This document shows positions 30,326 through 52,272 of a stretch of 64,000 nucleotides of DNA, piece after piece (the first letter of the stretch is position 1; each line of letters opens with the position of its first letter). This DNA comes from an uncultured Pseudokineococcus sp. Its GTDB lineage: Bacteria > Actinomycetota > Actinomycetes > Actinomycetales > Quadrisphaeraceae. A program made the translations under genes and the position numbers. The notes under the pieces were generated by a model that had not been told where the DNA came from, did no database searches, and worked only from the letters and a program-made list of their open reading frames with translations. The stretch lies in assembly GCF_947499845.1 (NCBI RefSeq), contig NZ_CANMPM010000004.1:186001-250000 (forward strand), given 5' to 3'.

Positions 30326-31879
30326 TCAGGCGGTGGGGGCCGCCTCCAGGTGGACCGCCTTCAGCGCGGTGAGCTCGCCCAGCAGGTCCGGGCCGAAGCC
30401 CCGGCCCTGCCCGCTGCCGCGACGGGGGTCGGCCGAGCCGCCCGGCGCGCCCCCGAAGACCGCGTTGACCTTGACGGTGCCGACCTCGAGCGCCTCGGCC
30501 GCCTCCAGGGCGTGCGCGGTGCTCGGGGTGAGGACGGTGGCGGCGAGCCCGTAGTCGCCCGCCGCCGCGAGCGCCAGGCCCTCGGCGAAGGAGGCGACCC
30601 GGGTGACCGCGGCGACGGGCCCGAAGGTCTCCTCCGTCATGAGCCGCATGCCGTCGGTGCAGCCGTCGAGCACCGTCGCCGGGTAGAAGGAGCCCGGCCG
30701 GTCGAGCCGGGCGCCCCCGGCGAGCACGCGCGCGCCCGCCTCGACGGCCTCGCGGACGTGCTCGTCGACGAGGGCGAGCTGGCGCTCGTCGACGAGCGGC
30801 CCGAGACCGGTCGCGGGGGCCGCCGGGTCGCCCGGGCGCAGGCCGTCGGCGAGGGCCACGAGCTCGGCCAGGACGGCGTCGGCCACGTCCTCGTGCAGGT
30901 ACACCCGCTCGACCGCCGTGCACAGCTGGCCCGTGTTCGTGAAGGCGCCGACGGCGACCTGCTGGGCCGCCCACGCCGGGTCGACGCCGGCGTCGACGAC
31001 GAGCGGGTCCTTGCCGCCGTTCTCGAGCAGGGCCCGCCCCCCGCGCGCGCCGACGGCCGCGGCGATGCGGCGGCCGGTCTCGGTGCTGCCGACGTGGGCC
31101 ACGACGTGCACGCGCGGGTCGGCGGCCAGGGCGGCGCCCGTCGCGCCGTCGCCCGCCAGCACGTTCAGGACGCCGTCCGGCAGGGCCCCCGCGATGCGGC
31201 GCGCCAGCTCGTGGCCGGCGCGGGCCGAGCGCTCGGAGGGCTTGTGCACCACCGTGTTGCCCGTGACGAGGGCCGCCGCGAGCAGGCCCGCCGCCGCCGG
31301 GTACGGGTCGTTCCACGGCGTCAGGACGGCGACGACGCCGCGAGGCTCGCGGCGGACGACGTCGACGGCGTCGACGGACCCCCCGAGCGAGCGGCCCGTG
31401 TCGAGGACGCCGGTGACGGCGGCCTCCTCGAGCAGCTCGGCGGCCACCTCGGCGGAGGCCCGCGCCTGGCCCAGCAGCCGGCCCGTCGTGGATGTGAGCA
31501 GGGCCCCGAGCTCGTCGGCGTCGGCGCGCACGGCCGCGGCCGCGGCGCGCAGGGCGGCCGCGCGCTCCCCGGGAGGGGTGCGGCGCCAGGCGGTGCGCGC
31601 GGCGTCGGCCGCGGCCACGGCGCGCCCGACCTCCTCGTCCGTCGCGGGGACCACCTCGCCGACCCGCTCCCCCGTCGCCGGGTCGACGACCTCCAGCACC
31701 CGGTCGCCCTCGGCGGCGACGGCGCGACCTCCGACGAGGTGCTCGCCCAGCCGGTGCGGGGCGGCGCCCGCAGCGGTGCCGGCGGCCGCGCCCGGGCCCC
31801 GGGCGGGCTCGCCGGCGGGGACGTCGCGGCCCGGCACGAGGTGCGGGGTCGAGGGCTCGGGGGCGGAGGAGGAGGTCAC
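30326..31879 (-). CDS. NAD(P)-dependent aldehyde dehydrogenase
   Basis: 517 residues. After about 45 residues of Pro/Ala-rich tail comes the ALDH fold: TPWNDPYPAAAG, KPSERSARAG as coenzyme site, the catalytic Glu in LLENGGKDPLVV, the nucleophilic Cys in NTGQLCTAVERV, and TEETFGPVAAV near the C-terminus. It oxidises an aldehyde to the acid; succinate-semialdehyde or betaine-aldehyde-type substrates are possible, but nothing fixes the substrate. Divergent from the glycan operon. GTG start with a TAGACA hexamer 6 bases upstream. Confidence 0.9.
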   Translation of the reverse strand: MTSSSAPEPSTPHLVPGRDVPAGEPARGPGAAAGTAAGAAPHRLGEHLVGGRAVAAEGDRVLEVVDPATGERVGEVVPATDEEVGRAVAAADAARTAWRRTPPGERAAALRAAAAAVRADADELGALLTSTTGRLLGQARASAEVAAELLEEAAVTGVLDTGRSLGGSVDAVDVVRREPRGVVAVLTPWNDPYPAAAGLLAAALVTGNTVVHKPSERSARAGHELARRIAGALPDGVLNVLAGDGATGAALAADPRVHVVAHVGSTETGRRIAAAVGARGGRALLENGGKDPLVVDAGVDPAWAAQQVAVGAFTNTGQLCTAVERVYLHEDVADAVLAELVALADGLRPGDPAAPATGLGPLVDERQLALVDEHVREAVEAGARVLAGGARLDRPGSFYPATVLDGCTDGMRLMTEETFGPVAAVTRVASFAEGLALAAAGDYGLAATVLTPSTAHALEAAEALEVGTVKVNAVFGGAPGGSADPRRGSGQGRGFGPDLLGELTALKAVHLEAAPTA

Positions 31880-32025: not shown

Positions 32026-33669
32026 ATGCGCGTCCTCGGCGTCAACGCCGTCTTCCACGACCCCGCTGCCGCCCTCGTCGTCGACGGCGAGGTCGTCGCC
32101 GCCGCCGAGGAGGAGCGCTTCAGCCGCCGCAAGCACGGCAAGCGGCCCGTCCCCTTCTCCGCGTGGGAGCTCCCCGAGCTCGCCATGCGCTGGTGCCTGT
32201 CCGAGGCCGGCCTCGAGCCGGGCGACCTCGACGCCGTCGCCTACTCCTACGACGCGTCCTGGTGCCGCCCGGCCGAGGAGATGGGCCTGCAGGACCCGTG
32301 GGACCACCTGCGCACCACCTACGCCGAGAAGGTCGCCGGCTTCCTCACCACCGCCCTGCCCGGCCTGGACCGTGACAAGGTCGTCCCGGTGCGCCACCAC
32401 GTGGCCCACGCCGCGTCGGCGGGCCTCGCCGTGGCCGAGGACTCGAGCGTCCTCGTCCTCGACGGCCGCGGCGAGCGCGCCTCGCACCTCGCGGGCCGCT
32501 ACGTCGACGGGAAGCTCGACGTCCTCACCACCACGGACCTGCCCGACTCGGTGGGCCTCGTCTACGAGTCGCTCACGGAGCACCTGGGCTTCCTGCGCAG
32601 CAGCGACGAGTTCAAGGTCATGGCGCTGGCGTCCTACGGCGAGCCGCGCTTCGCCGACGCGCTGCGCGAGCACCTGCACGCCACGGGCGACGGCCGCTAC
32701 GTCGCGCGCGAGCCCGACTGGACGCGCTTCGCCCCGCGCCGGGTCGACGACGGCACGTGGGGCGGCGCGCACGCCGACCTGGCCGCGTCCGTCCAGCTCC
32801 TCGTCGAGGAGCTGCTCGTCGACCTCGCCACCTGGCTGCACGGGCAGACCGGCGACCGGCTGCTGACGATGGCTGGCGGCATCGCCCTCAACTGCGTGGC
32901 CAACAGCCGCGTGTGGCGCGAGTCTCCCTTCGAGGAGGTCTGGGTGCAGCCCGCCTCCGGCGACTCGGGCACGGCGCTCGGCGCGGCCCTGCAGGTCAGC
33001 GCCGACGCGGGCGTGCGGCCGCGGCCGATGCCGGGCGCCGACCTCGGCCGCTCCTGGTCCGACGACGAGCTGGCGGCGTGGCTGCGCACGGCGCGCGTGC
33101 CCTTCACGACGCCGGACGACCTCGCCGGCGAGGTGGCCGACGTCCTGGCCGCCGACGGCGTCGTCGCCTGGTTCGACGGGCGCGCCGAGTTCGGCCCCCG
33201 GGCCCTCGGCCGGCGCTCGCTCATGGCCCACCCCGGCCGCGCGGAGAACCTCGAGCGCCTCAACGACGTCAAGGGCCGCGAGCAGTTCCGCCCCGTCGCG
33301 CCCATGGTGCTGGCCGAGCGCGCCGAGGAGATCTTCGCCGACGGGCCCTTCCCGAGCCCCTACATGCTCTTCGTGCACACCGTCCGCCCCGAGTGGCGCG
33401 AGCGGATCCCCGCGGTCACGCACGTCGACGGCACGGCGCGCATCCAGACGGTCGACGCCGAGCGCACCCCGCACGTCGCGGCTCTGCTCGAGGCCTTCGC
33501 CGAGCGCACCGGCCTGCCCGTCGTCGTCAACACGAGCCTCAACACCGCGGGCCGGCCCATGGTGGACGACCCCCGCGACGCGCTCGAGCTCTTCGGGTCC
33601 GCGCCCGTCGACGTGCTCGTGCTCGGCCCCCACCTCGTGCGCCGCGCCGACGCCTTCGCCGCGGCGTGA
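32026..33669 (+). CDS. O-carbamoyltransferase, NodU/CmcH family
   Basis: 547 residues. Family members transfer a carbamoyl group from carbamoyl phosphate, via carbamoyl-adenylate, to a hydroxyl of a sugar or antibiotic. Visible motifs: N-terminal VLGVNAVFHDPAAALVVDG, metal-binding HHVAHAAS (about 124-131), MAGGIALNCVANS, PASGDSGTALGAAL, and the C-terminal domain with GPRALGRRSLMAHP, REQFRPVAPMVL and NTSLNTAGRPMVDDP. Both domains are complete. It heads the heptose-type glycan operon and overlaps the next gene by GTGA. In Pseudomonas LPS a heptose is carbamoylated by a member of this family (WapO), so a carbamoyl-heptose is a reasonable inference. Confidence 0.92.
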   Translation: MRVLGVNAVFHDPAAALVVDGEVVAAAEEERFSRRKHGKRPVPFSAWELPELAMRWCLSEAGLEPGDLDAVAYSYDASWCRPAEEMGLQDPWDHLRTTYAEKVAGFLTTALPGLDRDKVVPVRHHVAHAASAGLAVAEDSSVLVLDGRGERASHLAGRYVDGKLDVLTTTDLPDSVGLVYESLTEHLGFLRSSDEFKVMALASYGEPRFADALREHLHATGDGRYVAREPDWTRFAPRRVDDGTWGGAHADLAASVQLLVEELLVDLATWLHGQTGDRLLTMAGGIALNCVANSRVWRESPFEEVWVQPASGDSGTALGAALQVSADAGVRPRPMPGADLGRSWSDDELAAWLRTARVPFTTPDDLAGEVADVLAADGVVAWFDGRAEFGPRALGRRSLMAHPGRAENLERLNDVKGREQFRPVAPMVLAERAEEIFADGPFPSPYMLFVHTVRPEWRERIPAVTHVDGTARIQTVDAERTPHVAALLEAFAERTGLPVVVNTSLNTAGRPMVDDPRDALELFGSAPVDVLVLGPHLVRRADAFAAA

Positions 33670-35258
33670 CGGCGGCCGTCCCCCCGGCCGACGCCCCGCG
33701 CGCGGCAGCGGCGAGCGAGGGCGCCGCGGGAGCCGGCGTCGCCCACGACGTCGTCGTCCCCAGCATCGGACGCCCCAGCCTGCTCGCGCTGCTGCGCAGC
33801 CTGGCGGGCCAGGACGGCCCGCCGCCCGCCGAGGTCGTCGTCGTCGACGACCGCCGCGAGCCCGACCCCGGGCTCGAGGCCGACCTCGTGCGCGCCCTCG
33901 GGGAGGACCCGGGGGCGCCGCCGTGGCGCCTGCGGGTCGTCCGCAGCCGCGGCCGGGGCCCCGCCGGGGCGCGCAACCTCGGCTGGCGGGTGACGTCCTC
34001 GCCCTGGGTGGCCTTCCTCGACGACGACGTCCTCCTGCCGGCCGGCTGGTCGCGCGGGCTGGCCGCGGACCTCGCCGCGGCGGGCGACGACCTCGGCGGC
34101 TCCCAGGGGCGCCTCGACGTCCCCCTGCCCGCGGGGCGCCGCCCCACCGACTGGGAGCGGGGCACGAAGGGCCTGGAGACGGCGGCGTGGGCCACGGCCG
34201 ACATGGCCTACCGGCGCCGGGCCCTGGAGGACGTCGCCGGCTTCGACGAGCGCTTCCCCCGCGCCTACCGCGAGGACGCCGACCTGGCGCTGCGCGTGCG
34301 CCGCGCCGGGTGGCGCCTGGAGCGCGGGCGCCGCACGACGACGCACCCGGTGCGCCCCGCCGACGCCCTCGTGAGCCTGCGCGTGCAGGCCGGCAACCGG
34401 GACGACGCCACCATGCGCGCCCTCCACGGGCCGCGGTGGCGCGAGGTCGCCGACGTCCCGCGGGGGCGCCTGCGCTGGCACGCGGCCACGTGCGCCGCGG
34501 CGCTGCTCGGCGTCGGCGGGCTGCTGGCCGGCCGGCCGCGCGCGGCCGCCGTCGGGACGCTGGCCTGGACGGCGCTCACCGCCGACTTCGCCCGGCGCCG
34601 CATCGCCCCGGGCCCGCGCACCGGCGCGGAGGTCCGCGCCATGCTGCTGACGAGCGCCGCCATCCCGCCCGCCGCCGTGCGCCACCGCGTGGTCGGCGAG
34701 CGCGCGGCGCGCCGAGGGCTGCCCGCGTGGCCGCCACCGGTGCGGGCCGTGCTCTTCGACCGCGACGACACCCTCGTCCACGACGTGCCCTACAACGGCG
34801 ACCCGGCCCGCGTGGAGCCGGTCGAGGGCGCGCGTCAGGTCGTCGCCGCCCTGCGGGACGCGGGCGTCGCCACCGGCGTCGTCAGCAACCAGTCCGGCGT
34901 CGCGCGCGGGCTCCTCTCCCCCGCCCAGGTCGAGGCGGTCAACGCCCGGGCCGACGAACTCGTCGGCCCGCTGGGCACCTGGCAGTGGTGCCCCCACGGC
35001 CCCGAGGACGGCTGCCGCTGCCGCAAGCCCGGCCCGGGCCTCGTCGAGCGGGCCGCCGCGGCCCTGGGCGTGCCGGTCGGCGCGTGCGCCGTCGTCGGCG
35101 ACATCGGCGCCGACGTCGAGGCCGCCCGTGCAGCCGGGGCGCGCGGCGTGCTCGTGCCGACGGCGCGCACGCTGCGCCGCGAGGTCGAGGACGCGCCCCA
35201 CGTCGCCGACGACCTCGCGGCCGCCGTGCGGATGCTCGTGCCGGGCGCGCTGGCGTGA
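33666..35258 (+). CDS. Fusion of GT2 glycosyltransferase and GmhB-type heptose-bisphosphate phosphatase
   Basis: 530 residues. Residues about 27-235 form a GT-A glycosyltransferase 2 domain: VVVPSIGRPSLLALLRSL, VVVVDD, and the metal motif LDDD at 118-121. A hydrophobic stretch (about 277-315) may hold a membrane-associated segment. From about 358 to the end is a HAD phosphatase with Asp365 and Asp367 in LFDRDDTLV, VVSNQSGVARG and VVGDIGADVEAA. It also carries the zinc-binding CPHGPEDGCRCRKP (from Cys442) that marks GmhB. GmhB removes the C7 phosphate from heptose 1,7-bisphosphate. Overlaps both neighbours by 4 bp. Confidence 0.88.
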   Translation: MTAAVPPADAPRAAAASEGAAGAGVAHDVVVPSIGRPSLLALLRSLAGQDGPPPAEVVVVDDRREPDPGLEADLVRALGEDPGAPPWRLRVVRSRGRGPAGARNLGWRVTSSPWVAFLDDDVLLPAGWSRGLAADLAAAGDDLGGSQGRLDVPLPAGRRPTDWERGTKGLETAAWATADMAYRRRALEDVAGFDERFPRAYREDADLALRVRRAGWRLERGRRTTTHPVRPADALVSLRVQAGNRDDATMRALHGPRWREVADVPRGRLRWHAATCAAALLGVGGLLAGRPRAAAVGTLAWTALTADFARRRIAPGPRTGAEVRAMLLTSAAIPPAAVRHRVVGERAARRGLPAWPPPVRAVLFDRDDTLVHDVPYNGDPARVEPVEGARQVVAALRDAGVATGVVSNQSGVARGLLSPAQVEAVNARADELVGPLGTWQWCPHGPEDGCRCRKPGPGLVERAAAALGVPVGACAVVGDIGADVEAARAAGARGVLVPTARTLRREVEDAPHVADDLAAAVRMLVPGALA

Positions 35259-36565
35259 GCGGGACCGCCGGCTCGGGGGCCGCCCGCTCCGGTGCCGCCG
35301 GCTCGGAGGACGCCGGTTCGGGGGCCGCCGGCTGGGAGCACGACCGGGGCGCGACCCGGCGGGTGCTCGCCGTCCGCCTCGACAGCGACGGCGACGTCCT
35401 GCTCACGGGCCCCGCCGTCCTCGCGCTGGGCACGGGGGCCGACGGCGCCCCCCGCGAGGTCGACCTGCTCGTCTCCCCGCAGGGCCGGGCGGCGGCCCAC
35501 CTGCTGCCGGGGGTCGCGGAGGTCCGGGTCGAGCAGGTGCCGTGGAGCGGGTACGCGCCCGCCGCCGCCGACCCCGCGGCGCTGCAGGCCCTCGTGGCCT
35601 GGATGGCCGGGCGGGCGCACGAGGAGGTCGTCGTCTTCACCTCCTTCCACCAGAGCCCGCTGCCCATGGCGCTCCTGGCCCGGCTGGCCGGGGCGCCGCG
35701 CGTCGTCGGCACGAGCGAGGACTACCCGGGCTCCCTGCTCGACGTCCGCCACCGCCGCCCGGGCGGTGCCGACGGCAGCGGAGGCGGCCACGAGGTCCTC
35801 GCCGCCCTCGACCTCGTGGCGGCCACGGGCCGCGCCGTGCCGAGCCGCCCCCGCCTCGCCGTGCGGACCGACCTCGTCGACGCCGCCGAGCGCGCCCTGC
35901 CCGCGCCGCCCAGCGGGGCGCGCGGCCTCGTGGTGCTGCACCCGGGGGCGTCCGTGCCCGCCCGCGCGCCCTCGCCCGCCGTCGCCGCGGACGCCGCGGC
36001 CGCGCTCGTCGACGACGGGTGGGCGGTCGCGCTCACCGGCTCCCCCGCCGAGGCCCCGCTCGTCGAGGACGTGCGCGAGCGCGCGTCCCGGGCGGCGGAC
36101 CCAGGGGCGGGCGGCCGGGCAGAAGGCACAGGGGCGGGCGGCCGGGCAGAAGGCACAGAGGCGGGCGGCCTGCTGGTCGACCTCGCCGGCGCCACGGACC
36201 TCGCCGGCCTGGCCGCCCTCCTGCGGCGCGCCGACGCCGTCGTCGTCGGCAACACCGGGCCGGCCCACCTCGCGGCGGCCGTGGGCACGCCGGTCGTCTC
36301 GCTCTTCTCCCCCGTCGTGCCCGCCGAGCGCTGGGCGCCGTGGGGGGTGCCCACCGTCCTGCTGGGCGACCAGGGGGCGCCGTGCGCCCTCTCCCGGGCC
36401 CGCGAGTGCCCAGTCCCGGGGCACCCGTGCCTGCAGCTGGACGGCCGCAACGTCGTGGAGGCCGTACGGTCGGTCGTCGGCGTCCAGCCCGGTGGCGCCG
36501 CAGGATCGGTCGAGCGGGTCGCGGGGTCGAGCGCCGCCGGGACGCGAGGAGGAGCACGCCCGTGA
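35255..36565 (+). CDS. Glycosyltransferase family 9 (heptosyltransferase-like), first copy
   Basis: 436 residues. After a Gly/Ser/Ala-repeat tail of about 30 residues comes the GT9 fold: RVLAVRLDSDGDVLLTGPAVLAL, LVVLHPGASVPAR (the usual GAS in the donor domain) and VVVGNTGPAHLAAAVGTPVVSLFSP. GT9 enzymes typically use ADP-heptose. The middle has a 27-bp DNA repeat giving AGGRAEGT units at about residue 285-305, likely a surface loop. Coupled to both neighbours by GTGA overlaps. Confidence 0.9.
   Translation: MSGTAGSGAARSGAAGSEDAGSGAAGWEHDRGATRRVLAVRLDSDGDVLLTGPAVLALGTGADGAPREVDLLVSPQGRAAAHLLPGVAEVRVEQVPWSGYAPAAADPAALQALVAWMAGRAHEEVVVFTSFHQSPLPMALLARLAGAPRVVGTSEDYPGSLLDVRHRRPGGADGSGGGHEVLAALDLVAATGRAVPSRPRLAVRTDLVDAAERALPAPPSGARGLVVLHPGASVPARAPSPAVAADAAAALVDDGWAVALTGSPAEAPLVEDVRERASRAADPGAGGRAEGTGAGGRAEGTEAGGLLVDLAGATDLAGLAALLRRADAVVVGNTGPAHLAAAVGTPVVSLFSPVVPAERWAPWGVPTVLLGDQGAPCALSRARECPVPGHPCLQLDGRNVVEAVRSVVGVQPGGAAGSVERVAGSSAAGTRGGARP
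36102..36168 (+). repeat. 27-bp tandem repeat, 2.4 copies, coding
   Basis: Identical units at 36102-36128 and 36129-36155 plus a diverged partial copy, in frame within the first GT9 gene (AGGRAEGT units). Frame is kept because 27 is a multiple of 3. Confidence 0.8.
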
Positions 36566-37581
36566 GGGTCCTGCTGTGGCACGTGCACGGCTCGTGGACG
36601 ACGTCGTTCGTCCAGGGGCGGCACACGTACCTGCTGCCGGTGCTGCCCGGGCGCGGCCCCGACGGGCGCGGCCGCGCCCGCACGTGGCAGTGGCCCGCGT
36701 CGGCCGTCGAGGTGACGCCCGAGGAGCTGGCCGCCGCCCCGCCGGACGTCGTCGTCCTCCAGCGCGCCCACGAGGGCGAGCTGCTGCGCCGCTGGACCGG
36801 CCTCGTGCCGGGCGTCGACGTCCCCGTCGTCCACCTCGAGCACGACGCCCCCACCGACCACGCCGCGCGCAGCCGCCAGCGGGCGGCCGACGGGCGCGAC
36901 CTCGTCGTGCACGTGACCGCCTACAACGCGCTCATGTGGGACAACGGCGCGGCGCCGACGACGGTCGTCGAGCACGGCGTCGTCGACCCCGGCGCGCTCG
37001 CCACCGGCGAGCGGGCCTCCCTCGGCGTCGTCGTCAACGAGCCGGTGCGGCGCGAGCGCGTGGCCGGCACCGACGTCGTCCTCGACCTCGCGCGGGCCCT
37101 GCCCGTCGAGGTGTACGGCATGGGCATGACGGCGCTGGGCGAGCTCGCCGACGCCCGCGGCGTCCCCGCCCTCGGCAGCGCCTCCGGGGCGCTGCACGAC
37201 GACCTGCCCCAGCACCGCATGCACGCCGAGCTCGGCGCCCACCGCGCCTACCTGCACCCCTACCGGTGGACGAGCCTCGGCATGGCGCTCGTGGAGGCCA
37301 TGACGATCGGCATGCCCGTGCTCGCCGTCGCCAGCACGGCCGCCGCCGACGCCGTGCCGGCGGCCGGCGGCGTCGTCAGCGCCGACCCGCGGGTCCTCGC
37401 CCGGGCGGCCCGCGCGTGGCTCGACGACCCGGCCCGGGCCCGGGAGGCCGGCGCCGCCGCGCGCGAGCACGCCCTCGCCCGCTTCGGGCTCGACCGCTTC
37501 CTCGCCGACTGGGACGAGGTCCTCGACGCCGTCGTCGCCGGCGGGCTGCCCGCGGCCGCACGCCGGGAGGTCCTCGCGTGA
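36562..37581 (+). CDS. Glycosyltransferase, GT4-like (GT-B fold), divergent
   Basis: 339 residues. The N-terminus VRVLLWHVHGSWTTSFVQGRH and the C-terminal LHPYRWTSLGMALVEAMTIGMPVLA (the E-x7-E-type donor site region) indicate a GT-B glycosyltransferase. The middle part (HLEHDAPTDHA, VYGMGM) is not familiar. Donor and acceptor are unknown. Starts with GTG inside the previous stop and ends within the next start. Confidence 0.8.
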   Translation: MRVLLWHVHGSWTTSFVQGRHTYLLPVLPGRGPDGRGRARTWQWPASAVEVTPEELAAAPPDVVVLQRAHEGELLRRWTGLVPGVDVPVVHLEHDAPTDHAARSRQRAADGRDLVVHVTAYNALMWDNGAAPTTVVEHGVVDPGALATGERASLGVVVNEPVRRERVAGTDVVLDLARALPVEVYGMGMTALGELADARGVPALGSASGALHDDLPQHRMHAELGAHRAYLHPYRWTSLGMALVEAMTIGMPVLAVASTAAADAVPAAGGVVSADPRVLARAARAWLDDPARAREAGAAAREHALARFGLDRFLADWDEVLDAVVAGGLPAAARREVLA

Positions 37582-38801
37582 GGGTCGCGATGGTGTCCGA
37601 GCACGCCAGCCCGCTCGCGGCGCTGGGCGGCGTCGACGCCGGCGGGCAGAACGTCCACGTCGCCCACCTGGCCGCGGCGCTGGCGGCGCGCGGGCACGCG
37701 GTCGACGTCTACACGCGCCGCGACGCCGTCGACCTGCCCGAGCAGGTCGAGCTCGTCGACGGCGTCACGGTGGTCCACGTCGACGCGGGCCCCCCGGCCG
37801 AGGTGCCGAAGGACGCGCTGCTGCCGCACATGGAGGCCTTCGGCCGGCGCCTCGCCGAGCACCTGCTCGAGCAGCCCGCCGACCTCCTGCACGCCCACTT
37901 CTGGATGAGCGGGGTGGCCACGCGCGAGGCCGCCCGCTCGGTGGGGCTGCCGTGGGTGCAGACCTTCCACGCCCTCGGGTCGGTGAAGCGGCGCCACCAG
38001 GGCGGGGAGGACACGAGCCCGCCCTCGCGCGTGGCCACGGAGACCGAGCTCGCGGCCGAGGCGGACGCCGTCCTCGCCACCTGCCGCGACGAGGTCTCCG
38101 AGCTGGCCGACCTGGGCGCCCCGCACGACCGCGTGCGCGTCGTCCCCTGCGGCGTCGACGTCGACCTCTTCACCCCCGAGGGGCCCGTCGGCGGGCCGGA
38201 GCGGCGCGAGCCGCACCGCGTCGTCGTCGTGGGCCGGCTCGTGGAGCGCAAGGGCGTCGAGGAGGTCGTGCGGGCGCTGGCCCTCGGGCTGACCTCGGCG
38301 CTGGCGCGGACCGAGCTGCTCGTCCTCGGCGGCCCGCCCGCCGACCACCTCGGGATCGACGCGGAGGCCCAGCGGCTGCGGGGCCTGGCCGAGGAGCTCG
38401 GCGTCGCGGACCGCACGCACCTCCTGGGGCGCGTGGACCACTCCGACCTCCCCGCGCTCCTGCGCGGGGCGGACGTCGTCGTCGCCACCCCCTGGTACGA
38501 GCCCTTCGGCATCGTGCCGCTCGAGGCGATGGCCTGCGGCCGCCCCGTCGTGGGCAGCGCCGTCGGGGGCCTGCTCGACACCGTGGCCGACGGCGTGACC
38601 GGCGCCCTCGTGCCCCCGCGAGACGCCGTGGCGCTGGCCGCGGCCCTCGGGCCCCTGCTCGAGGACGCCCCCCGGCGCGAGGCGTGGGGCCGGGCGGCGC
38701 GCGAGCGCGCCGTCGCCGGCTTCAGCTGGCGCGAGGTGGCCGCCCGCACCGAGGACGCCTACGAGGGCGTGCTCGCCCGCACCCGCCTGGAGGCCCTGTG
38801 A
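37578..38801 (+). CDS. Glycosyltransferase family 4
   Basis: 407 residues with the full GT4 layout: VRVAMVSEHASPLAALGGVDAGGQNVHV at the N-terminus, DLLHAHFWMSG, then HRVVVVGRLVERKGVEEVV starting the second domain and ATPWYEPFGIVPLEAMACGRP with the E-x7-E site. It resembles the MshA/sucrose-phosphate-synthase-like branch; no cysteine-ligase partner for mycothiol is near, so a mycothiol role is not supported. Donor probably a nucleotide sugar. 4-bp overlaps on both sides. Confidence 0.88.
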   Translation: MRVAMVSEHASPLAALGGVDAGGQNVHVAHLAAALAARGHAVDVYTRRDAVDLPEQVELVDGVTVVHVDAGPPAEVPKDALLPHMEAFGRRLAEHLLEQPADLLHAHFWMSGVATREAARSVGLPWVQTFHALGSVKRRHQGGEDTSPPSRVATETELAAEADAVLATCRDEVSELADLGAPHDRVRVVPCGVDVDLFTPEGPVGGPERREPHRVVVVGRLVERKGVEEVVRALALGLTSALARTELLVLGGPPADHLGIDAEAQRLRGLAEELGVADRTHLLGRVDHSDLPALLRGADVVVATPWYEPFGIVPLEAMACGRPVVGSAVGGLLDTVADGVTGALVPPRDAVALAAALGPLLEDAPRREAWGRAARERAVAGFSWREVAARTEDAYEGVLARTRLEAL

Positions 38802-41236
38802 GCGACGAGCCGACCCCCCGCGAGACGACCGGCCGCGAGACGAGCGGCCGCGAGACCAGCGGCCCGGGGCCCGAGCCGGGCCGGGAGGCGGTCGCGCCCG
38901 CCGGGCCGCACGAGCACGTGGAGGGCGGCCCGTGGCTGTCCGAGCACGTCGACGAGCTCGTGGCCGCGCTCGGGCGGCTGCGCGCCAGCGCCGACCGCGT
39001 GCACCGGTGGGGCGCCGAGCTCGCGGGCGTCCTCGCCGGGGGCGGGCGCCTGCTCGCGGCCGGCAACGGCGGCAGCGCGGCGGAGGCCCAGCACCTGACG
39101 GCCGAGCTCGTCGGGCGCTTCGTGGGCGAGCGCCGGCCGCTGTCGGCCATCGCGCTGCACGCCGACTCCTCGAGCACGACGGCCATCGGCAACGACTACG
39201 GCGAGCGCGAGGTCTTCGCCCGCCAGGTGCAGGCGCACGGCCGCCCCGGCGACGTCGTCGTCCTGCTGTCGACGTCCGGGCGCAGCCCCAACGTCCTGGA
39301 GGCGGCGGCCCGGGCGCGGGCCGGCGGCCTGCGGGTGTGGGCGCTCACCGGCCCCGCCCCGAACCCGCTGGCCGAGCTGGCCGACGAGGTCGTCGCCGTC
39401 GACGCCCCCTCGACCTCGGGCGTGCAGGAGGGGCACCTCGTGCTCGTCCACGCGCTGTGCGCCGGCGTCGACGCGGCGCTCGCGGCAGCCGACGCCGGCG
39501 CCCAGCGGCCGGTGGCCGTCCCGGGCGCGGCTCCCGCGGCCGTCGACGCCGCCGCGGACCTCGCGGGGTCCGAGGCGTCCGCGGGCCTCGGGTCCGCCCC
39601 GGGCCGGGACGCCCTCCCGCACGAGACCCTCGGTGCTGTCGTGGTTGAGCCGGTCGACCAGGAGCCGGTCGACCAGGGCGCCGAGGACGACGTCGAGCCG
39701 CCTCGTCGACGCCGCCGGCGGGTCGTCGTCGTCGGCGACGTCGTCCTCGACCGCGACCTCGACGGCGTCGTCGAGCGGGTCGCCCCGGACGCGCCCGTGC
39801 CGGTCGTCGACCTGCGGGCGACGACGGAGAGCCCCGGCGGCGCCGGCCTCACCGCCCTGCTCGTGGCCGCCGGGCGCGGCGACGGGCGAACCCCGGCCGG
39901 AGCGCCGCGCGGCGCGGAGGACGCAGGCGTGGACGTCGTCCTCGTCGCCCCCGTCGGCGACGACGAGGACGGCGAGCGGCTGAGGGCGGCGCTGGCCGCC
40001 GCCGACGGCTCGCTGGAGCTCGTCGCGCTCCCCCACACCGGCGCCACGAGGACGAAGACGCGCGTGCGCGCCGCGGGGCAGTCGCTCGTGCGCGTCGACT
40101 CCGGCGGCCCGGGCACGCCCTCGGCGCCCGACCTCGACGAGCTGCGCGCCGTCCTCGCGCGCGCGGACGTCGTCCTCGTGTCGGACTACGGCGCCGGCAC
40201 GACGCACGACCCCGGCGTGCGCGCGGTGCTCGGCGCGGCCGCCGCGGCGGTCCCGGTGGTCTGGGACCCGCACCCCCGCGGCGGGGAGCCCGTCCACGGC
40301 TGCGCGCTCGTGACGCCCAACCTCTCCGAGGCGGCGCGCGTCCTGGGCGGCGCCCCGCGCGCCGACGACGCGGCCGGCGCGCTGGCGCGGCGGTGGGCCG
40401 CGCGGGGCGTCGTCGTCACCGCGGGCGAGCGCGGGGCCTTCCTCGGCCTCCCGGGCAGCGAGCCCGTCTACGTGCCGGCACCCCTCGTCGCCGGCGGCGA
40501 CCCGTGCGGCGCGGGCGACCGCTTCGCCGCCACGGCCGCCCTGGCCCTCGCCGACGGCGCCGTCCTGCCCGAGGCCGTCGTCGACGCCGTCGCCGACGCC
40601 TCGGCGTGGGTGGCGGGTGGCGGCGCCTCCGGGTGGCGGGCGCACCGCGCCGCGGCCCCGACGCGCGCCGCGGCGCCCTCCGGCGGGAGCGGGGCGCTCG
40701 CGCGGGTGGAGGGCCCGACGGCCGTCGGCGTCCCCGCCGGCAGCGCGTCCGCGGCGGACGCGCGCGCCCTCGTCGCGGGGGTCCGCGCCGCCGGCGGTGT
40801 CGTCGTCGCCACGGGCGGGTGCTTCGACGTGCTCCACGCCGGGCACGTGGGCTGCCTCGAGGCGGCGCGCCGGCTCGGCGACGCCCTCGTCGTCCTCGTG
40901 AACTCCGACGCGTCCGTGCGCCGCCTCAAGGGCGAGGGCCGTCCGGTCCAGAGCCAGGCCGACCGCGTCCGCGTCCTCGAGGCGCTGGAGGCGGTCGACG
41001 CCGTCGCCGTCTTCGACGAGGACGACCCCCGCGAGGCCCTGCGCGTCCTGCAGCCGGACGTGTGGGCCAAGGGCGGGGACTACGGCGCCGCGGGCGCCGA
41101 CATGCCCGAGGCGCCGCTCGTGCGGGGCTGGGGCGGGCGGGTCGTCCTGCTCCCCTACCTCGACGGGCGCTCGACCACCGAGATCCTCCGCCGCGGGGCC
41201 CCCGCGGCGGTCGTCGCAGAGCAGGAGAACCCGTGA
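38798..41236 (+). CDS. Three-domain fusion: GmhA isomerase, HldE kinase and HldE adenylyltransferase
   Basis: 812 residues carrying three steps of ADP-heptose synthesis. Residues about 45-240 are a SIS-fold GmhA (sedoheptulose-7-phosphate isomerase): AAGNGGSAAEAQHLTAEL with Asn90, TSGRSPNVLEAA, and SGVQEGHLVLVH with the catalytic Glu/His context. A linker with acidic and Arg-rich stretches (about 241-306) leads to a PfkB-type kinase (about 307-610) with GDVVLDRDLDG, SPGGAGLTALLVAA and GDPCGAGDRFAA with catalytic Asp574. Residues about 665-812 are an RfaE2-type nucleotidyltransferase with GGCFDVLHAGHVGCL (HAGH at 680-683) and the AKGGDY segment. The kinase uses DPCGAGD instead of the common DTTGAGD. 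The product should be ADP-D,D-heptose. Confidence 0.9.
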   Translation: MSDEPTPRETTGRETSGRETSGPGPEPGREAVAPAGPHEHVEGGPWLSEHVDELVAALGRLRASADRVHRWGAELAGVLAGGGRLLAAGNGGSAAEAQHLTAELVGRFVGERRPLSAIALHADSSSTTAIGNDYGEREVFARQVQAHGRPGDVVVLLSTSGRSPNVLEAAARARAGGLRVWALTGPAPNPLAELADEVVAVDAPSTSGVQEGHLVLVHALCAGVDAALAAADAGAQRPVAVPGAAPAAVDAAADLAGSEASAGLGSAPGRDALPHETLGAVVVEPVDQEPVDQGAEDDVEPPRRRRRRVVVVGDVVLDRDLDGVVERVAPDAPVPVVDLRATTESPGGAGLTALLVAAGRGDGRTPAGAPRGAEDAGVDVVLVAPVGDDEDGERLRAALAAADGSLELVALPHTGATRTKTRVRAAGQSLVRVDSGGPGTPSAPDLDELRAVLARADVVLVSDYGAGTTHDPGVRAVLGAAAAAVPVVWDPHPRGGEPVHGCALVTPNLSEAARVLGGAPRADDAAGALARRWAARGVVVTAGERGAFLGLPGSEPVYVPAPLVAGGDPCGAGDRFAATAALALADGAVLPEAVVDAVADASAWVAGGGASGWRAHRAAAPTRAAAPSGGSGALARVEGPTAVGVPAGSASAADARALVAGVRAAGGVVVATGGCFDVLHAGHVGCLEAARRLGDALVVLVNSDASVRRLKGEGRPVQSQADRVRVLEALEAVDAVAVFDEDDPREALRVLQPDVWAKGGDYGAAGADMPEAPLVRGWGGRVVLLPYLDGRSTTEILRRGAPAAVVAEQENP

Positions 41237-42039
41237 CCGAGAGCTCCACCCCGACCGACCCGACGACGCCGGCCGACCCGGGCGCCGGGACCGGCCGCAC
41301 GATCGCCCCGGCCACCGGCCCCGCCGTGGGCCCCGAGGGCGGCATGGCCGGTCAGCGCGAGCTGGGCGTCGTCTACGTCACGGGCGGCTCGTCCGGCCTC
41401 GGCGCGGCCGTCGTCGAGGTCGTCACCGCCCTCGGCGGCACCGCCGCCGTCGTCGACCGCGACGCGCCCGCCTCGGGCGCCCCGCACGCCGTCGCCGACG
41501 TCTCCGACGCGGCCTCGGTCGAGCGCGCCGTCGCCGAGCTCGTCGAGCAGGTGGGCCCGCCGACGGCCGTCGTCACCGCCGCGGGCACCGACGCCGTCGG
41601 CCGCCTCGAGGACGTGCCCGCCGAGCGCTGGGCGCAGGTCGTCGGCGTCAACCTCGTCGGCACGGCCGCCGCGGTGCGCGCGTGCCTGCCCCACCTCAAG
41701 GCCTCCCGCGGCGTCGTCGTCACCGTGTCGAGCTCGCTCGGGCTGCGCGCGGCGAGCGACGCGACCGCCTACTGCGCCAGCAAGTTCGGCGTCGTCGGCC
41801 TCACCCGCGCCCTCCAGCTCGAGCTGGCCGGCGAGGTCGGCGTGACGATGCTCGTGCCCGCCGGGATGCGCACGAAGTTCTTCGACGGCCGCACCGAGCA
41901 GTACAAGCCCGGCCCGGACGCCGACCTCATGGACCCGCGCGTCGTCGCCCACTCCGTGGTCCACGCGCTGCGCCAGCCCGTCGGCACCGAGGTGCGCGAG
42001 ATGGTCGTCACCGTCTCGACGGAGCCGTCCTGGCCCTGA
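41233..42039 (+). CDS. Classical short-chain dehydrogenase/reductase of the glycan operon
   Basis: 268 residues, with a 40-residue Thr/Pro tail (an internal ATG at 41344 is an alternative start). TGGSSGLG cofactor motif, TAAGTD, SSSLGLRAASDATAYCASK with Tyr180 and Lys184. It is a classical SDR, not an extended epimerase like HldD, so it would oxidise or reduce a keto/hydroxyl group on a sugar or nucleotide sugar. It could modify the heptose or finish an epimerisation. Overlaps the fusion gene by GTGA and the next gene by CTGA. Confidence 0.85.
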   Translation: MTESSTPTDPTTPADPGAGTGRTIAPATGPAVGPEGGMAGQRELGVVYVTGGSSGLGAAVVEVVTALGGTAAVVDRDAPASGAPHAVADVSDAASVERAVAELVEQVGPPTAVVTAAGTDAVGRLEDVPAERWAQVVGVNLVGTAAAVRACLPHLKASRGVVVTVSSSLGLRAASDATAYCASKFGVVGLTRALQLELAGEVGVTMLVPAGMRTKFFDGRTEQYKPGPDADLMDPRVVAHSVVHALRQPVGTEVREMVVTVSTEPSWP

Positions 42040-43226
42040 CGCCCGGCCCCGCGCCCGCCGCCCCGACGGCGCCGCCGTCCGGGGCGGCCGGGCCGCGGGT
42101 CGTCCTGGCGCTGCGCGCGCTGGGCCTCGGGGACGCCCTCGCGGGCGTCCCCGCCCTGCGCGGGCTGCGGCGGGCGCGTCCCGACCACCTGCTCGTGCTG
42201 GCGGGCCCGCCGGGGCCCGGTGAGCTGCTGCGGCGCCGGGGCGTCGTGGACCGAGTGCTGCCCGTGGAGGGCGTGCGCGCCCTCGACGAGGCCGCGGTCG
42301 CCGGTGCGCTGCGTGCCTCCCCCGACGTCCTGCCCCCGGGGCGCTGCGTCGACCTCGCCGCCAACCTCCACGGCCGAGGGCCGCAGAGCGCCCGCGCCCT
42401 GCGCACCGTGCTCGACGAGCGGGGCACCGCCGGAGCGCTCCTCGTCGGGCACCGCTGCGCTGCAGCCGGTCTCGAGGACGGTCCGGAGTGGGACGGCGAC
42501 GCGGCGGAGGTCGACCGGTGGGTGCGCCTCGTCGTCGCCGCCGGCGGGCCGTGCTCGGCGGACGACCTCGTGCTGCCCCCCGCGGGCCCCGGGGTCGGCA
42601 CGGGCGCGGGTCCGCGGGCGGGCGCCGGCGAGGTCTCGGGCGCGGACGGGACCGGGGTGGGCGACGACCTCCGCCGTCTCGCGGGGGCGGTCGTCCTGCA
42701 CCCGGGCGCCGCGTCGGGCTCACGCCGGTGGCCGGTCGACCGGTGGGCGGCGCTGGCCGCCCGGCTCCTGGCGGACGGCCACCGGGTCGTGCTCACGGGC
42801 GCGGGCGCCGAGACGGAGCTCACGGGGGAGGTCGTCCGTCGGACGCGGGCGGCGAGCGCCGGAGCCGCCCGCACCGGAGGGCCCGACGACGACGCGGGAC
42901 CCCTCGTCGACCTGGCGGGCCGCTGCGACCTCGAGCAGCTGGCCGACCTGGTGGCGCGCGCCCGCGCGCTCGTCTGCGGGGACACGGGCGTGGCGCACCT
43001 GGCGACCGCCCTGCGCACGCCCTCGGTGCTCCTGTTCGGGCCGACGTCACCGGCCGCGTGGGGGCCGGCGGTGGACCGGGACCGGCACGCCGTCCTCTGG
43101 CCGGCGCCGGACGCGGGCTACCGCGGCGACCCGCACGCCGACGCCGTCGACCCGGTGCTCGCGCGCACCGGGGTGGACGACGTCCTCGCCGCCCTGCGGG
43201 CGCTGCCGTCCCGGCCGGCCGCGTGA
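42036..43226 (+). CDS. Glycosyltransferase family 9 (heptosyltransferase-like), second copy
   Basis: 396 residues if it starts at the CTG at 42036, which overlaps the SDR stop as CTGA exactly as GTGA does at the other junctions. No ATG or GTG in frame lies between there and the conserved RVVLALRALGLGDALAGVPALRGL. GT9 features follow: VDLAANLHGRGPQS, VLHPGAASGSRRWPVDRWAALA and ALVCGDTGVAHLATALRTPSVLLFGPTSP. ADP-heptose is the usual donor for this family, so with the first copy it suggests two heptosyl transfers. Coupled downstream to an alkA-like gene. Confidence 0.85.
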   Translation: MTPGPAPAAPTAPPSGAAGPRVVLALRALGLGDALAGVPALRGLRRARPDHLLVLAGPPGPGELLRRRGVVDRVLPVEGVRALDEAAVAGALRASPDVLPPGRCVDLAANLHGRGPQSARALRTVLDERGTAGALLVGHRCAAAGLEDGPEWDGDAAEVDRWVRLVVAAGGPCSADDLVLPPAGPGVGTGAGPRAGAGEVSGADGTGVGDDLRRLAGAVVLHPGAASGSRRWPVDRWAALAARLLADGHRVVLTGAGAETELTGEVVRRTRAASAGAARTGGPDDDAGPLVDLAGRCDLEQLADLVARARALVCGDTGVAHLATALRTPSVLLFGPTSPAAWGPAVDRDRHAVLWPAPDAGYRGDPHADAVDPVLARTGVDDVLAALRALPSRPAA

Positions 43227-44158
43227 GCGAGGCGACCGCGGCGCAGCCCCTCGCCGCGGCGAGGGTCGCCTTCACGCCGCCGCTGCACGCGCCGCAGCTG
43301 TTCGGCCACCTCGCGGCGACGGCCGTCCCCGGGGTCGAGGCGTGGACCGACGGGGCGCTCGTCCGCAGCCTCGCGCTGCCCGGTGGACCGGGCGTCGTCC
43401 GCGTCGCCCCGCCGGGGCCGGACGAGGACGCCGTCGTCGTGGCGCTCCTGAGCGGATCCCCGGCCGACCTGCCCGCGGCGGTGGCCGCCGTCCGCTGGTG
43501 GCTCGACCTCGACGTCGACCCGGCCGCCGTCGACCCCGTCCTCGTGCGCGACGCGGCGCTGGCCCCGCTCGTCGCGGCGGGCCCCGGGAGGCGGGTGCCC
43601 CGCTCGGCCGGAGCGGCGGAGACGGCCGTGCGGGCCGTGCTCGGCCAGCAGGTGAGCACGGCGGCGGCGCGCACCCACACCGGTCGGCTCGTCGCCGCCC
43701 ACGGCACGCCGCTCCCGGAGCCGGTGGCGGGCGTCACGCACCTCTTCCCGACGCCGGAGCAGCTCACCGCGGTGGCGGCCGCCGAGCTGGCGCTGCCCCG
43801 GACGCGGCAGCGGACCCTCCTCGGCCTCGTCGCCGCCCTGGCCGAGGGGCTGCTCGCGCTGCCGCCCGGCCGACCCGCCGCGCCGGTGCGCGAGGAGCAC
43901 CTCGCCGCCCTGCGGGCGCTGCCCGGCGTGGGCCCGTGGACGGCCTCGACCGTCGCCCTGCGCGGGCTCGGCGACGACGACGCCTTCCTGCCGGGCGACC
44001 TCGGCGCGCTCGCCGCCGCGCGCGACCTCGGCCTGGCCGACGACGCCCGGGCCCTCGAGCGCCGGTCGAGCGCCTGGTCCCCCGTGCGCGGCTACGCCCT
44101 GCAGCACCTGTGGGGCGCGCTGCCGCACCCGATCAACGCGCTGCCGGTCGGTCGCTGA
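43223..44158 (+). CDS. alkA: AlkA-type DNA-3-methyladenine glycosylase
   Basis: 311 residues. Base-excision enzyme for alkylated purines. An AlkA N-terminal-like domain precedes the HhH-GPD core: RAVLGQQVSTAAARTHTGRL, then ALPGVGPWTASTVALRGLGDDDAFLPGDLG with catalytic Asp259. It overlaps the second GT9 gene by GTGA, an unexpected partner for a glycan operon. Its last 26 bases overlap the convergent antiporter gene. No methyltransferase (Ada/Ogt) is beside it. Confidence 0.9.
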   Translation: MSEATAAQPLAAARVAFTPPLHAPQLFGHLAATAVPGVEAWTDGALVRSLALPGGPGVVRVAPPGPDEDAVVVALLSGSPADLPAAVAAVRWWLDLDVDPAAVDPVLVRDAALAPLVAAGPGRRVPRSAGAAETAVRAVLGQQVSTAAARTHTGRLVAAHGTPLPEPVAGVTHLFPTPEQLTAVAAAELALPRTRQRTLLGLVAALAEGLLALPPGRPAAPVREEHLAALRALPGVGPWTASTVALRGLGDDDAFLPGDLGALAAARDLGLADDARALERRSSAWSPVRGYALQHLWGALPHPINALPVGR

Positions 44159-48247: not shown

Positions 48248-49312
48248 TCAGGCGCCCGCGGGCACCGCTCCGGCGGGCACGCCGCCGGCGCCGTCACGGG
48301 ACCCCGCCGCGACGGGGCCCGTGCCGCCGTCCGCGAGGGCCTCGCGGAACCACGCGACGGTGCGGGCGAGCCCGTCCTCCCACGCGACCTCCGGCGCCCA
48401 CCCGAGCGCCTCGGCCGCGAGGCGCGTGTCGGGGCGGCGGACCTGCGGGTCGTCGACCGGGCGCCCGACGAAGGCGAGCTCGGAGGGGGACCCGGTGGCG
48501 GCGATGACGTCCTCGGCGATGCGCCGCACGGTCAGCTCGTGCGGGTTGCCGATGTTCAGCGGCCCGGCGTGGCCGGAGGAGGCGAGCAGCAGGATGCCGC
48601 GGACGAGGTCGTCGACGTAGCAGACCGAGCGTGTCTGCAGGCCGTCGCCCGCCACCGTGACGGGCTCCCCGGCGAGCGCCTGCCGCACGAAGGTGGGGAT
48701 GGCCCGACCGTCGTGGGGCCGCATCCGCGGGCCGAAGGTGTTGAAGATCCGCACGATGCCCGTGTCGACGCCGTGAGAGGTGCGGTACGCCGTCGTCAGC
48801 GCCTCGGCGTAGCGCTTGGCCTCGTCGTAGACGCCGCGCGGGCCGACGGGGTTGACGTGGCCCCAGTACTCCTCGGGCTGCGGGTGCACCTGCGGGTCGC
48901 CGTAGACCTCGGAGGTGGACGCCAGCACGAAGCGGGCGCCCTTGTCCTTCGCGAGCCCGAGGGCGTGCATCGTGCCGATCGAGCCGACCTTGAGCGTCTC
49001 GATGGGCAGCTTGAGGTAGTCCACCGGCGAGGCCGGCGACGCGAAGTGCAGGACGAGGTCGACGTCCCCCGGCACGTGCACGTAGTCGGTGATGTCGCAC
49101 CGCACCAGCCGCAGTCCGGGGTGCTCGACGACGTGCGCGAGGTTGGCCGGCGTCCCGGTGAGGAAGCTGTCGAGGCCCACGACCTCGGTGCCGCGGGAGA
49201 GCAGCTCCTCGACGAGGTGGCTGCCGAGGAAGCCGGCCGCCCCGGTGACGACCGCCCGCCGCGGCGGGTCGGGGCGGGTCGTCACCGGGGCGATCGAGGT
49301 CAGGTCGCTCAC
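48248..49312 (-). CDS. Extended SDR sugar-nucleotide enzyme, UDP-glucuronate decarboxylase-like
   Basis: 354 residues. Rossmann motif VTGAAGFLGSHLVEELL, FLTGTPANLAHV, HFASPASPVDYLKLPIETLKVGS, and STSEVYGDPQVHPQPEEYWGHVNPVGPRGVYDEAKRYAEAL with Tyr162 and Lys166. The order of these motifs matches UDP-xylose synthase (UDP-glucuronate decarboxylase) better than dTDP-glucose dehydratase, so the product is probably UDP-xylose. The C-terminal 25 residues are an Ala/Gly/Pro tail. It lies 8 bp after the DUF2795 gene and 6 bp before the permease gene. It may supply a pentose to the glycan made by nearby transferases. Confidence 0.85.
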   Translation of the reverse strand: MSDLTSIAPVTTRPDPPRRAVVTGAAGFLGSHLVEELLSRGTEVVGLDSFLTGTPANLAHVVEHPGLRLVRCDITDYVHVPGDVDLVLHFASPASPVDYLKLPIETLKVGSIGTMHALGLAKDKGARFVLASTSEVYGDPQVHPQPEEYWGHVNPVGPRGVYDEAKRYAEALTTAYRTSHGVDTGIVRIFNTFGPRMRPHDGRAIPTFVRQALAGEPVTVAGDGLQTRSVCYVDDLVRGILLLASSGHAGPLNIGNPHELTVRRIAEDVIAATGSPSELAFVGRPVDDPQVRRPDTRLAAEALGWAPEVAWEDGLARTVAWFREALADGGTGPVAAGSRDGAGGVPAGAVPAGA

Positions 49313-49705: not shown

Positions 49706-50626
49706 GTGAGCACGCCTCCCCCTCCCGAGCCCGCCCCTGCCGCTCCGGCGAGCACCCCCGCCGCCGCCCCCGCCGGTCGGGGCGGGGCCCGCCGCGGCGC
49801 GCGGACCACCGTCGTCGTGGCGAGCATGAACCGGCGCGAGGAGCTGCTGGCGAGCCTGCGCCGGCACGAGGGCCCCGTCGTGCTCGTCGACAACGGCAGC
49901 ACCGACGGCACGGTCGAGGCCGTGCGCGAGCAGCTGCCGCACGTCGACGTCGTCGCGCTGCCGGCCAACCGCGGCGCCGCGGCGCGCACCATCGGCGTCG
50001 AGCGGGCGCGGACCCCGTACGTGGCCTTCGCCGACGACGACTCCTGGTGGGCGCCGGGGATGCTCGAGCGCGGCGCCGACCTCTTCGACGCCTCCCCGCG
50101 GCTGGCCCTCGTGTGCGGGCGGATCCTCGTCGGCCCGGAGGAGCGGCCCGACGGCATCGGCGACCTCATGGCGCGCTCCGCGCTCGGCACGGACGACGAC
50201 CTGCCCGGCCCGTCGCTGCTCGGCTTCGTCGCGTGCGCCGCGATGGTCCGCCGCGACGCCTTCCTCGAGGCCGGGGGGTTCGACGACGTCGTGTTCTTCC
50301 CCGGCGAGGAGGAGCGGCTGTCCTACGACCTGGCGGCCGCCGGTCACGGGCTCGCGTACGTCGAGGACCTCGTCGTCCACCACCACCCCTCGCCGTCGCG
50401 GGACGCCCCCCGCGAGCGCCAGGTCCGCATCGCCCGCGCCGCGCTGCTCACCGCCGTCATGCGCCGCCCCTGGCCGGCCGTGGCGCGGAGCCTCGTGACG
50501 ACGCTGCGCTCGCACCCCGAGGCCGTGCGCCGGGCGCTGCCGTCCCTGCGGGCCGCCCTGCGGGCGCGGCGGCCCAACCCGCCCGCCGTCGAGGCCGGCA
50601 TCCGGGCGCTGCGGCAGGGGGGCTGA
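49706..50626 (+). CDS. Glycosyltransferase family 2
   Basis: 306 residues from the GTG at 49706. After a Pro/Ala-rich tail: TTVVVASMNRREELLASLRRH, VVLVDNGSTDGTVEAV, LPANRGAAARTIGVERARTPYVAFADDDSWW with the metal-binding DDD, and MVRRDAFLEAGGFDDVVFFPGEEERLSYDL. It is a GT-A enzyme with a C-terminal helical end (LRALRRAL-like), no membrane segment. Donor and acceptor unknown. The upstream DUF2795-UXS pair on the other strand could provide UDP-xylose for it. Confidence 0.88.
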   Translation: MSTPPPPEPAPAAPASTPAAAPAGRGGARRGARTTVVVASMNRREELLASLRRHEGPVVLVDNGSTDGTVEAVREQLPHVDVVALPANRGAAARTIGVERARTPYVAFADDDSWWAPGMLERGADLFDASPRLALVCGRILVGPEERPDGIGDLMARSALGTDDDLPGPSLLGFVACAAMVRRDAFLEAGGFDDVVFFPGEEERLSYDLAAAGHGLAYVEDLVVHHHPSPSRDAPRERQVRIARAALLTAVMRRPWPAVARSLVTTLRSHPEAVRRALPSLRAALRARRPNPPAVEAGIRALRQGG

Positions 50627-52070: not shown

Positions 52071-52259
52071 CGGGGCGTCACGCCGTCGGACCGACGCGGC
52101 CGCGGACCTCGAGGGCCGACGCGCCGTCACGACGCCCCTGATGTCCGCGGTCGACGCGAGCCGACTCGTTCGGATGGTCGTCGTACGCACGTTCGAGTGA
52201 CAGGGCATCGTCGCAGGTCAGGGGCCTGCAGCGAGGGCTCGGTTGTCGGTGGTCGCCCC

Positions 52260-52265: not shown

Positions 52266-52272
52266 CGTCCCC

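Follow-up and report, generated by a model that had tools for sequence, protein, structure and literature searches.

A probable operon of the cwg type and its predicted heptose-containing envelope glycan in an uncultured Pseudokineococcus

Why should an actinobacterium, a type of organism not known to have lipopolysaccharide (LPS), encode a full set of enzymes for making activated heptose next to a series of glycosyltransferases? The question is raised by nine genes at positions 32026-44158 of a 64,000-nucleotide stretch of DNA from an uncultured Pseudokineococcus sp. (RefSeq assembly GCF_947499845.1, contig NZ_CANMPM010000004.1, positions 186,001 to 250,000 of the forward strand). This whole stretch is called the window here, and all positions below refer to it. 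An initial annotation, made from the sequence letters, had proposed a complete ADP-heptose pathway in an undescribed glycan system. The cwg ("cell wall glycan") operon, SCO6179-6190 in Streptomyces coelicolor, was reportedly described in 2002 by Hong, Paget and Buttner (cited in PMC6767563 and PMC5839063). Based on gene order and domain content, the window block is probably an operon of the cwg type that directs the synthesis of an envelope glycan or glycolipid with heptose in it.

Codon-preference gene calling, followed by translation, gave nine plus-strand open reading frames whose eight junctions are four-base overlaps: seven of GTGA (at 33666, 35255, 36562, 37578, 38798, 41233 and 43223) and one of CTGA (at 42036). 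The initial annotation was right in coordinates, strand and order, with two of the eight overlaps depending on the choice of start codon. For the GT4 gene the codon-preference caller favoured ATG 37590, and for the second GT9 gene (GT9b) it favoured GTG 42195; neither start leaves an overlap. For GT9b, a CTG start near 42036 is more likely than GTG 42195, because congeners share the frame from about 42099 onward and because no in-frame ATG, GTG or TTG lies between the stop of the preceding gene and 42123, a position that is itself inside the congener-conserved stretch. One congener (L045) has an identical CTGA at this start, and another (L046) has a GTG one codon past the stop of the preceding gene.

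Domains were identified by Pfam and NCBIfam profile searches and by comparison with sequences of solved structures in the Protein Data Bank (PDB), and Pfam agrees with the identities first assigned to all nine products. The first gene (32026..33669) encodes an O-carbamoyltransferase of the NodU/CmcH/TobZ family (Pfam Carbam_trans_N/C, the C domain at 1.8e-64) with 13 orthologues at 64-95% identity. The second (33666..35258) encodes a fusion of a GT2 glycosyltransferase (about 33750-34325; Pfam, 3.3e-13) and a HAD-type phosphatase (about 34740-35240) like GmhB, the heptose-1,7-bisphosphate 7-phosphatase. GmhB is the top NCBIfam model for this protein, and the PDB comparison of the phosphatase part gives an unnamed HAD hydrolase (3l8h) first, then the D,D-heptose 1,7-bisphosphate phosphatases 4pnh and 2gmw. 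Next come a heptosyltransferase-like GT9 (GT9a; 35255..36565; PF01075, 4.1e-17), a GT-B glycosyltransferase that is GT4-like (36562..37581; PF00534, 2.9e-9) and an MshA-like GT4 (37578..38801; PF00534 and PF13439), which scores 256 bits with TIGR03449, under the cut-off of 462.5. The sixth gene (38798..41236) is a single open frame for an 812 aa protein that joins GmhA (about 39026-39484), the HldE kinase (about 39713-40627) and a nucleotidyltransferase (about 40769-41194). This GmhA-HldE protein matches SIS_2, PfkB and CTP_transf_like in Pfam, and its top NCBIfam rows are HldE, rfaE domains and GmhA; the PDB comparison of its kinase domain points to D-beta-D-heptose 7-phosphate kinase. The block ends with a classical short-chain dehydrogenase/reductase (SDR; adh_short; 41233..42039; PF00106, 1.5e-32) that is an optional member, the heptosyltransferase-like GT9b (42036..43226; PF01075, 1.2e-26; PDB match to heptosyltransferase II, 1psw, 1.3e-12) and an AlkA-type DNA glycosylase (43223..44158; AlkA_N, 2.5e-26).

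The arrangement is conserved well outside this strain. When 59 genomes of relatives (own included) were searched with the GmhA-HldE protein, 37 had matches at E ≤ 0.001, many of them weak; all 12 other genomes of the family matched at E ≤ 1e-67, and 10 of 46 genomes that belong to the order but not to the family reached E ≤ 1e-60. The carbamoyltransferase was found in nine of 13 relatives (own included) and was absent from two fragmented drafts of the family and two genomes of other families. Gene order was compared in 17 stretches from relatives with strong matches and in the best 80 among 434 confirmed relatives from a scan of named genomes with the carbamoyltransferase alignment (the named loci); counts from the latter start from the carbamoyltransferase and are silent on operons that lack it. 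By carbamoyltransferase, the nearest named loci are actinobacterial. The initial annotation was to be abandoned if the operon proved peculiar to this strain, and the exact order (carbamoyltransferase-GT2-GmhB-GT9-GT-B-GT4-GmhA-kinase-nucleotidyltransferase) occurs in 13 of the 17 relatives and 41 of the best 80 named loci, among them Georgenia, Cellulomonas, Sanguibacter, Nakamurella, Promicromonospora, Couchioplanes and many Streptomyces. Because it is kept across families, the arrangement is not due to chance. Three relatives (L056, L057 and L060) are without the carbamoyltransferase and GT2 beside the remaining genes, and a fourth (L061) has no matches for the carbamoyltransferase, GT-B and GT4. 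In the best 80 named loci, the carbamoyltransferase stands by itself in 10; a further 29 are incomplete or have another order, and several of these 29 are stretches that stop at a contig end. The order is rearranged in Microbispora, Nonomuraea and Rhodococcus rhodnii, and matches for GmhB and GT9a are missing in four Streptomyces loci (L078, L090, L106 and L108). Fusions are less regular: across the 97 loci (80 named and 17 relatives), GmhA is fused to the kinase in 15 (both parts found in 74) and GT2 to GmhB in 31 (both parts found in 71). The SDR was matched in 25 of the best 80 named loci. GC content is 66-81% in 4 kb steps of the window and 79-81% in the operon, matching its surroundings; this and the conserved gene order rule out a strain-specific operon or a recent island.

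As first proposed, all four steps to NDP-D-glycero-D-manno-heptose (NDP, nucleoside diphosphate) are encoded, judging by domain content. GmhA would convert sedoheptulose-7-phosphate to D,D-heptose-7-phosphate, the HldE kinase would form heptose-1,7-bisphosphate, GmhB would leave heptose-1-phosphate, and the HldE nucleotidyltransferase would yield the NDP-heptose. The NCBIfam scores for GmhA, HldE and GmhB are all under their curated cut-offs, and their function therefore rests largely on the co-occurrence of all steps. The same low scores would be expected if these homologues no longer acted on heptose (for example, on another ketose-phosphate instead) and the GT9 enzymes used another donor. 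This is most improbable, however, in that the four heptose domains occur together within the retrieved stretch in 50 of the best 80 named loci, phosphoheptose isomerases of known structure align with some 150 residues of the GmhA domain, and such enzyme sets from several kingdoms made ADP-heptose in assays (PMC11461863).

Two features bear on which heptose, and which nucleotide, the pathway uses. First, no HldD 6-epimerase (TIGR02197, cut-off 274.6 bits) was found over the cut-off in the genome, which is 97.55% complete; the best score was 87.7 bits. The extended SDR encoded at 48248-49312 was rejected as a missing HldD, with 49 bits against the cut-off and far better matches to UXS1 structures. 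In a sample of 396 genomes of the phylum, in which three candidates per genome were scored for the carbamoyltransferase, two for GmhA/HldE and five for HldD (absences are thus soft), HldD exceeded the cut-off in one genome, which is outside the 34 with this carbamoyltransferase clade (see below). Since no 6-epimerase was found, D,D-heptose is probably used directly, giving a product of the D-glycero form. A genome survey of sugar pathways places ADP-linked L-glycero-heptose only in Gammaproteobacteria, and its negative for the ADP-glycero-heptose pathway known from Helicobacter is by its own account a false negative (PMC7725333). Second, the nucleotidyltransferase carries the STTR5 arginine (codon 41168-41170). 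All 21 aligned rows, among which are three paralogues, share this residue; the first position of the motif in the window protein is Y, not F/L. This arginine has been tied to the use of CTP and UTP besides ATP (Tang et al. 2024, as described in PMC11461863 and PMC11573728), and its presence makes CDP- or UDP-heptose a possible product. Of the ADP-heptose first proposed, the steps to an NDP-heptose are present, and "ADP" may be too narrow.

The system cannot be called undescribed, as the homologous loci of Streptomyces are the cwg operon and fusions of isomerase, kinase and nucleotidyltransferase have already been reported (PMC11461863, PMC11573728). Streptomyces loci such as L087 and L079 have the order decarboxylase-like SDR, carbamoyltransferase, GT2, GmhB, GT9, GT-B, GT4, GmhA, HldE, GT9 and GT2. 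The published cwg list gives SCO6180-6183 as transferase, transferase, dehydratase and transferase, and SCO6185-6188 as transferase, phosphoheptose isomerase (cwgH), bifunctional synthase/transferase and transferase (PMC5839063); SCO6183 (cwgE) is a putative heptosyltransferase (PMC5882110). SCO6184, at the cwgF position, is absent from the annotation rows compared. The order fits if the HisB-like GmhB protein is what the list calls a "dehydratase" (SCO6182). The cwg promoter sequence has been printed with a distance of 147 bases, and the operon belongs to the cell-envelope stress regulon (PMC6767563). In S. violaceorubidus (L079), a 29-base match to the S. coelicolor promoter, with two mismatches, ends 146 bases before the GTG where homology of the first gene begins, and three further named loci match at 4-7 mismatches. 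For the Streptomyces loci, we regard order and promoter together as establishing identity with cwg. Because the exact order occurs in Streptomyces, the promoter is matched in L079 and the positions in the published gene list agree, we read the window block as a divergent, fused cwg-type operon homologous over its whole length. By order, the carbamoyltransferase would be cwgB, the GT2-GmhB fusion cwgC and cwgD, GT9a cwgE, the GT-B enzyme cwgF, the MshA-like GT4 cwgG, the GmhA-HldE fusion cwgH and cwgI, and GT9b cwgJ. The names phosphoheptose isomerase (cwgH) and heptosyltransferase (cwgE) already hint at a link between cwg and heptose. No description of that link was found in the literature covered, which did not extend to Hong 2002, Tang 2022 and Tang 2024, so it may be in print.

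In addition to the heptose pathway, the operon encodes five glycosyltransferases and one carbamoyltransferase. We propose that the GT9 enzymes would transfer D-glycero-D-manno-heptose without epimerisation, that the GT2 and GT4 enzymes would add other sugars, perhaps including xylose derived from a nearby decarboxylase-like enzyme, and that the carbamoyltransferase would carbamoylate a sugar hydroxyl in the cytoplasm before export. As first proposed, that sugar might be the heptose, as in Pseudomonas LPS; the family to which the enzyme belongs does not predict its acceptor. Assembly would be cytoplasmic, with the finished unit exported by machinery encoded elsewhere, and the fusions and four-base overlaps might ensure an equal dose of consecutive steps.

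Several observations weigh against a cwg-type envelope operon, and they concern the promoter, the carbamoyltransferase and export. The S. coelicolor operon is represented in our comparison by its published annotation and promoter, not its DNA. The cwg promoter was found at ≤ 8 mismatches in only four of the best 80 named loci, the other 76 exceeding that number. No SigE-type promoter (AAC-N15-19-GTC) was found upstream of the carbamoyltransferase gene in the window or in eight loci of the family, in a scan that is insensitive in Streptomyces itself. A stricter form of the pattern misses L079 and matches five of 43 loci (one, L071, being an artefact with its start off the contig), with 0.13 matches expected by chance per stretch and about 5.6 in all; a looser form is no commoner in Streptomyces-type loci than chance. 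The three aligned members of the genus share GTAGGAAGT directly ahead of the start codon.

The carbamoyltransferase is not always found with the heptose genes. The 10 named loci that hold it alone comprise nine titled Geodermatophilaceae and one unverified record titled Bacillus. In nine of these 10 genomes, GmhA/HldE matches lie outside the retrieved stretch, and the physical link between the carbamoyltransferase and the heptose genes is therefore loose. The corresponding regions of five of the nine keep the order GmhB-GT9-GT-B-GT4-GmhA-HldE-GT9 without the carbamoyltransferase; four of the five have a GT2 in front, and the fifth begins at a contig end. In the phylum sample, 58 of 396 genomes passed a strict search with the carbamoyltransferase alignment: 34 at more than 850 bits (own included), a single genome at 578 and another 23 at or under about 440. 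Compared by eye, the 34 have GmhA/HldE no more than about 10 kb away on the same contig in 27 cases and on another contig in four, with none found in three. Of the 70 phylum genomes with a GmhA-HldE match at 1e-30, 39 fall outside the 34; many of the 39 have GmhA-only matches and some (such as G258, G331 and G404) a good HldE, and this carbamoyltransferase is thus not a constant companion of heptose genes. Based on the named loci in which it stands alone, the carbamoyltransferase is probably a partner of the heptose pathway to which it is not obligatorily linked.

With respect to export, Pfam and NCBIfam revealed no flippase, polymerase, ligase or ABC exporter in any of the nine proteins, and a hydropathy scan peaks at only 1.63-1.88, with one stretch of the GT2 borderline hydrophobic by eye. 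As no exporter or clear membrane helix was identified among them, it is the name and regulation in Streptomyces that place the product at the surface. The same absences would suit a soluble heptose-containing specialised metabolite or an intracellular oligosaccharide, built by a logic like that of septacidin or mycothiol, in place of a wall glycan. Septacidin synthesis in Streptomyces uses NDP-heptose (PMC11461863), one GT4 of the operon is MshA-like, and the same-family carbamoyltransferases of known structure that match the window protein include natural-product enzymes (novobiocin type, GdmN and TobZ), the title of the best match, 7xb6, naming no substrate. We nonetheless consider such a product rather unlikely, given that the operon is conserved over many genera and families, that no nonribosomal peptide synthetase or polyketide synthase domain occurs among the ten neighbouring proteins searched, and that the Streptomyces homologue is part of an envelope stress regulon (PMC6767563). 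Since NDP-heptose is a known donor for bacterial protein heptosylation (PMC11461863), the GT9 and other glycosyltransferases might instead decorate cell-surface proteins. This is very unlikely, as five glycosyltransferases and a carbamoyltransferase point to an oligosaccharide, and no autotransporter-heptosyltransferase family is among the domain matches listed.

Neighbouring genes bear on what else the glycan may contain. On the minus strand, about 4 kb downstream of the operon, an SDR like UDP-glucuronate decarboxylase (48248..49312) matches UXS1 structures at 338 bits (next best, 145). Its counterpart is the first gene in the Streptomyces loci and was matched, in either orientation, in 58 of the best 80 named loci; by inference, it corresponds to cwgA. 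This protein is a possible source of UDP-xylose, and its presence near the operon suggests that, should UDP-xylose be its product, a pentose may be part of the glycan. A plus-strand GT2 gene (49826..50626; PF00535, 4.6e-21) resembles one that follows GT9b in many Streptomyces loci, and was matched in 28 of the best 80 named loci. The AlkA gene, at first counted as a member of the system, directly follows GT9b in two of the 17 relatives (L045 and L046, both of the window's genus) and in none of the best 80 named loci; in five loci of the family it lies further downstream, behind an unrelated gene. With adjacency in two congeners only, AlkA was rejected as a functional operon member, and it is probably a passenger.

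Further features of the window are recorded here. An aldehyde dehydrogenase gene (30326-31879, minus strand) is divergent from the operon, and a homologue lies near the operon in nine of 10 stretches of the family and in 11 of the best 80 named loci. In L056, L057 and L060, a second, diverged HldE (kinase 34-37% identical) is found near a homologue of this gene. At 28765-30030, also on the minus strand, a gene with long tandem repeats encodes a 421 aa protein without a Pfam match, for which two congeners show about 52% identity along part of the sequence. A DUF222 protein gene (52243-53739, plus strand) stands just upstream of a plus-strand low-GC island (about 53820-55906; 55-61% GC compared with 75-80% elsewhere) that looks recently acquired. 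The ATPase protein of the island matches the PADLOC model AriAB (3.3e-191), which we take to be a PARIS-type anti-phage defence. A 15 bp tandem array of up to 7.7 copies (93-94% match) lies between called genes at 61579-61694.

In the literature covered, the cwg operon serves as a marker of wall stress with a product that is only predicted (PMC5839063, PMC6767563, PMC5882110). The comparison made here yields a testable composition (D,D-heptose, perhaps xylose, and a carbamoyl group) and extends the cwg-type system far beyond Streptomyces. NDP-heptoses trigger the innate-immune receptor ALPK1 (PMC11461863), and Gram-positive heptose makers thus matter to immunologists. More tentatively, and with considerable doubt, cwg-type operons across much of Actinomycetota might build a carbamoylated envelope glycan from xylose and D-glycero-D-manno-heptose, the latter possibly donated by CDP- or UDP-heptose. 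In Gram-positive bacteria, such a glycan would be a functional counterpart to the LPS core's heptose region, and in Streptomyces it would be tuned to wall stress.

Three known systems can be set beside the window operon. It has in common with the Gram-negative ADP-heptose and LPS inner-core pathway the GmhA, HldE and GmhB steps and the GT9 transferases; it differs in that HldD was not found in the genome, and no enzymes for lipid A or 3-deoxy-D-manno-octulosonic acid (Kdo) were found among the nine operon proteins and ten neighbours, the only proteins searched. Tang et al. reportedly described tridomain NDP-heptose synthetases of actinobacteria in 2022 (cited in PMC11573728 and PMC10948575). 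Like these (Tang et al. 2022, 2024), the GmhA-HldE protein has isomerase, kinase and nucleotidyltransferase in one chain and, like the NTP-promiscuous ones, the STTR5 arginine; no difference in layout is established from the citing papers. Unlike the cwg operon, that of the window has GT2 fused to GmhB and GmhA to HldE, an inserted SDR, a decarboxylase-like gene detached downstream, an appended AlkA and no visible SigE-type promoter. Common to both is the order carbamoyltransferase-GT2-GmhB-GT9-GT-B-GT4-GmhA-HldE-GT9.

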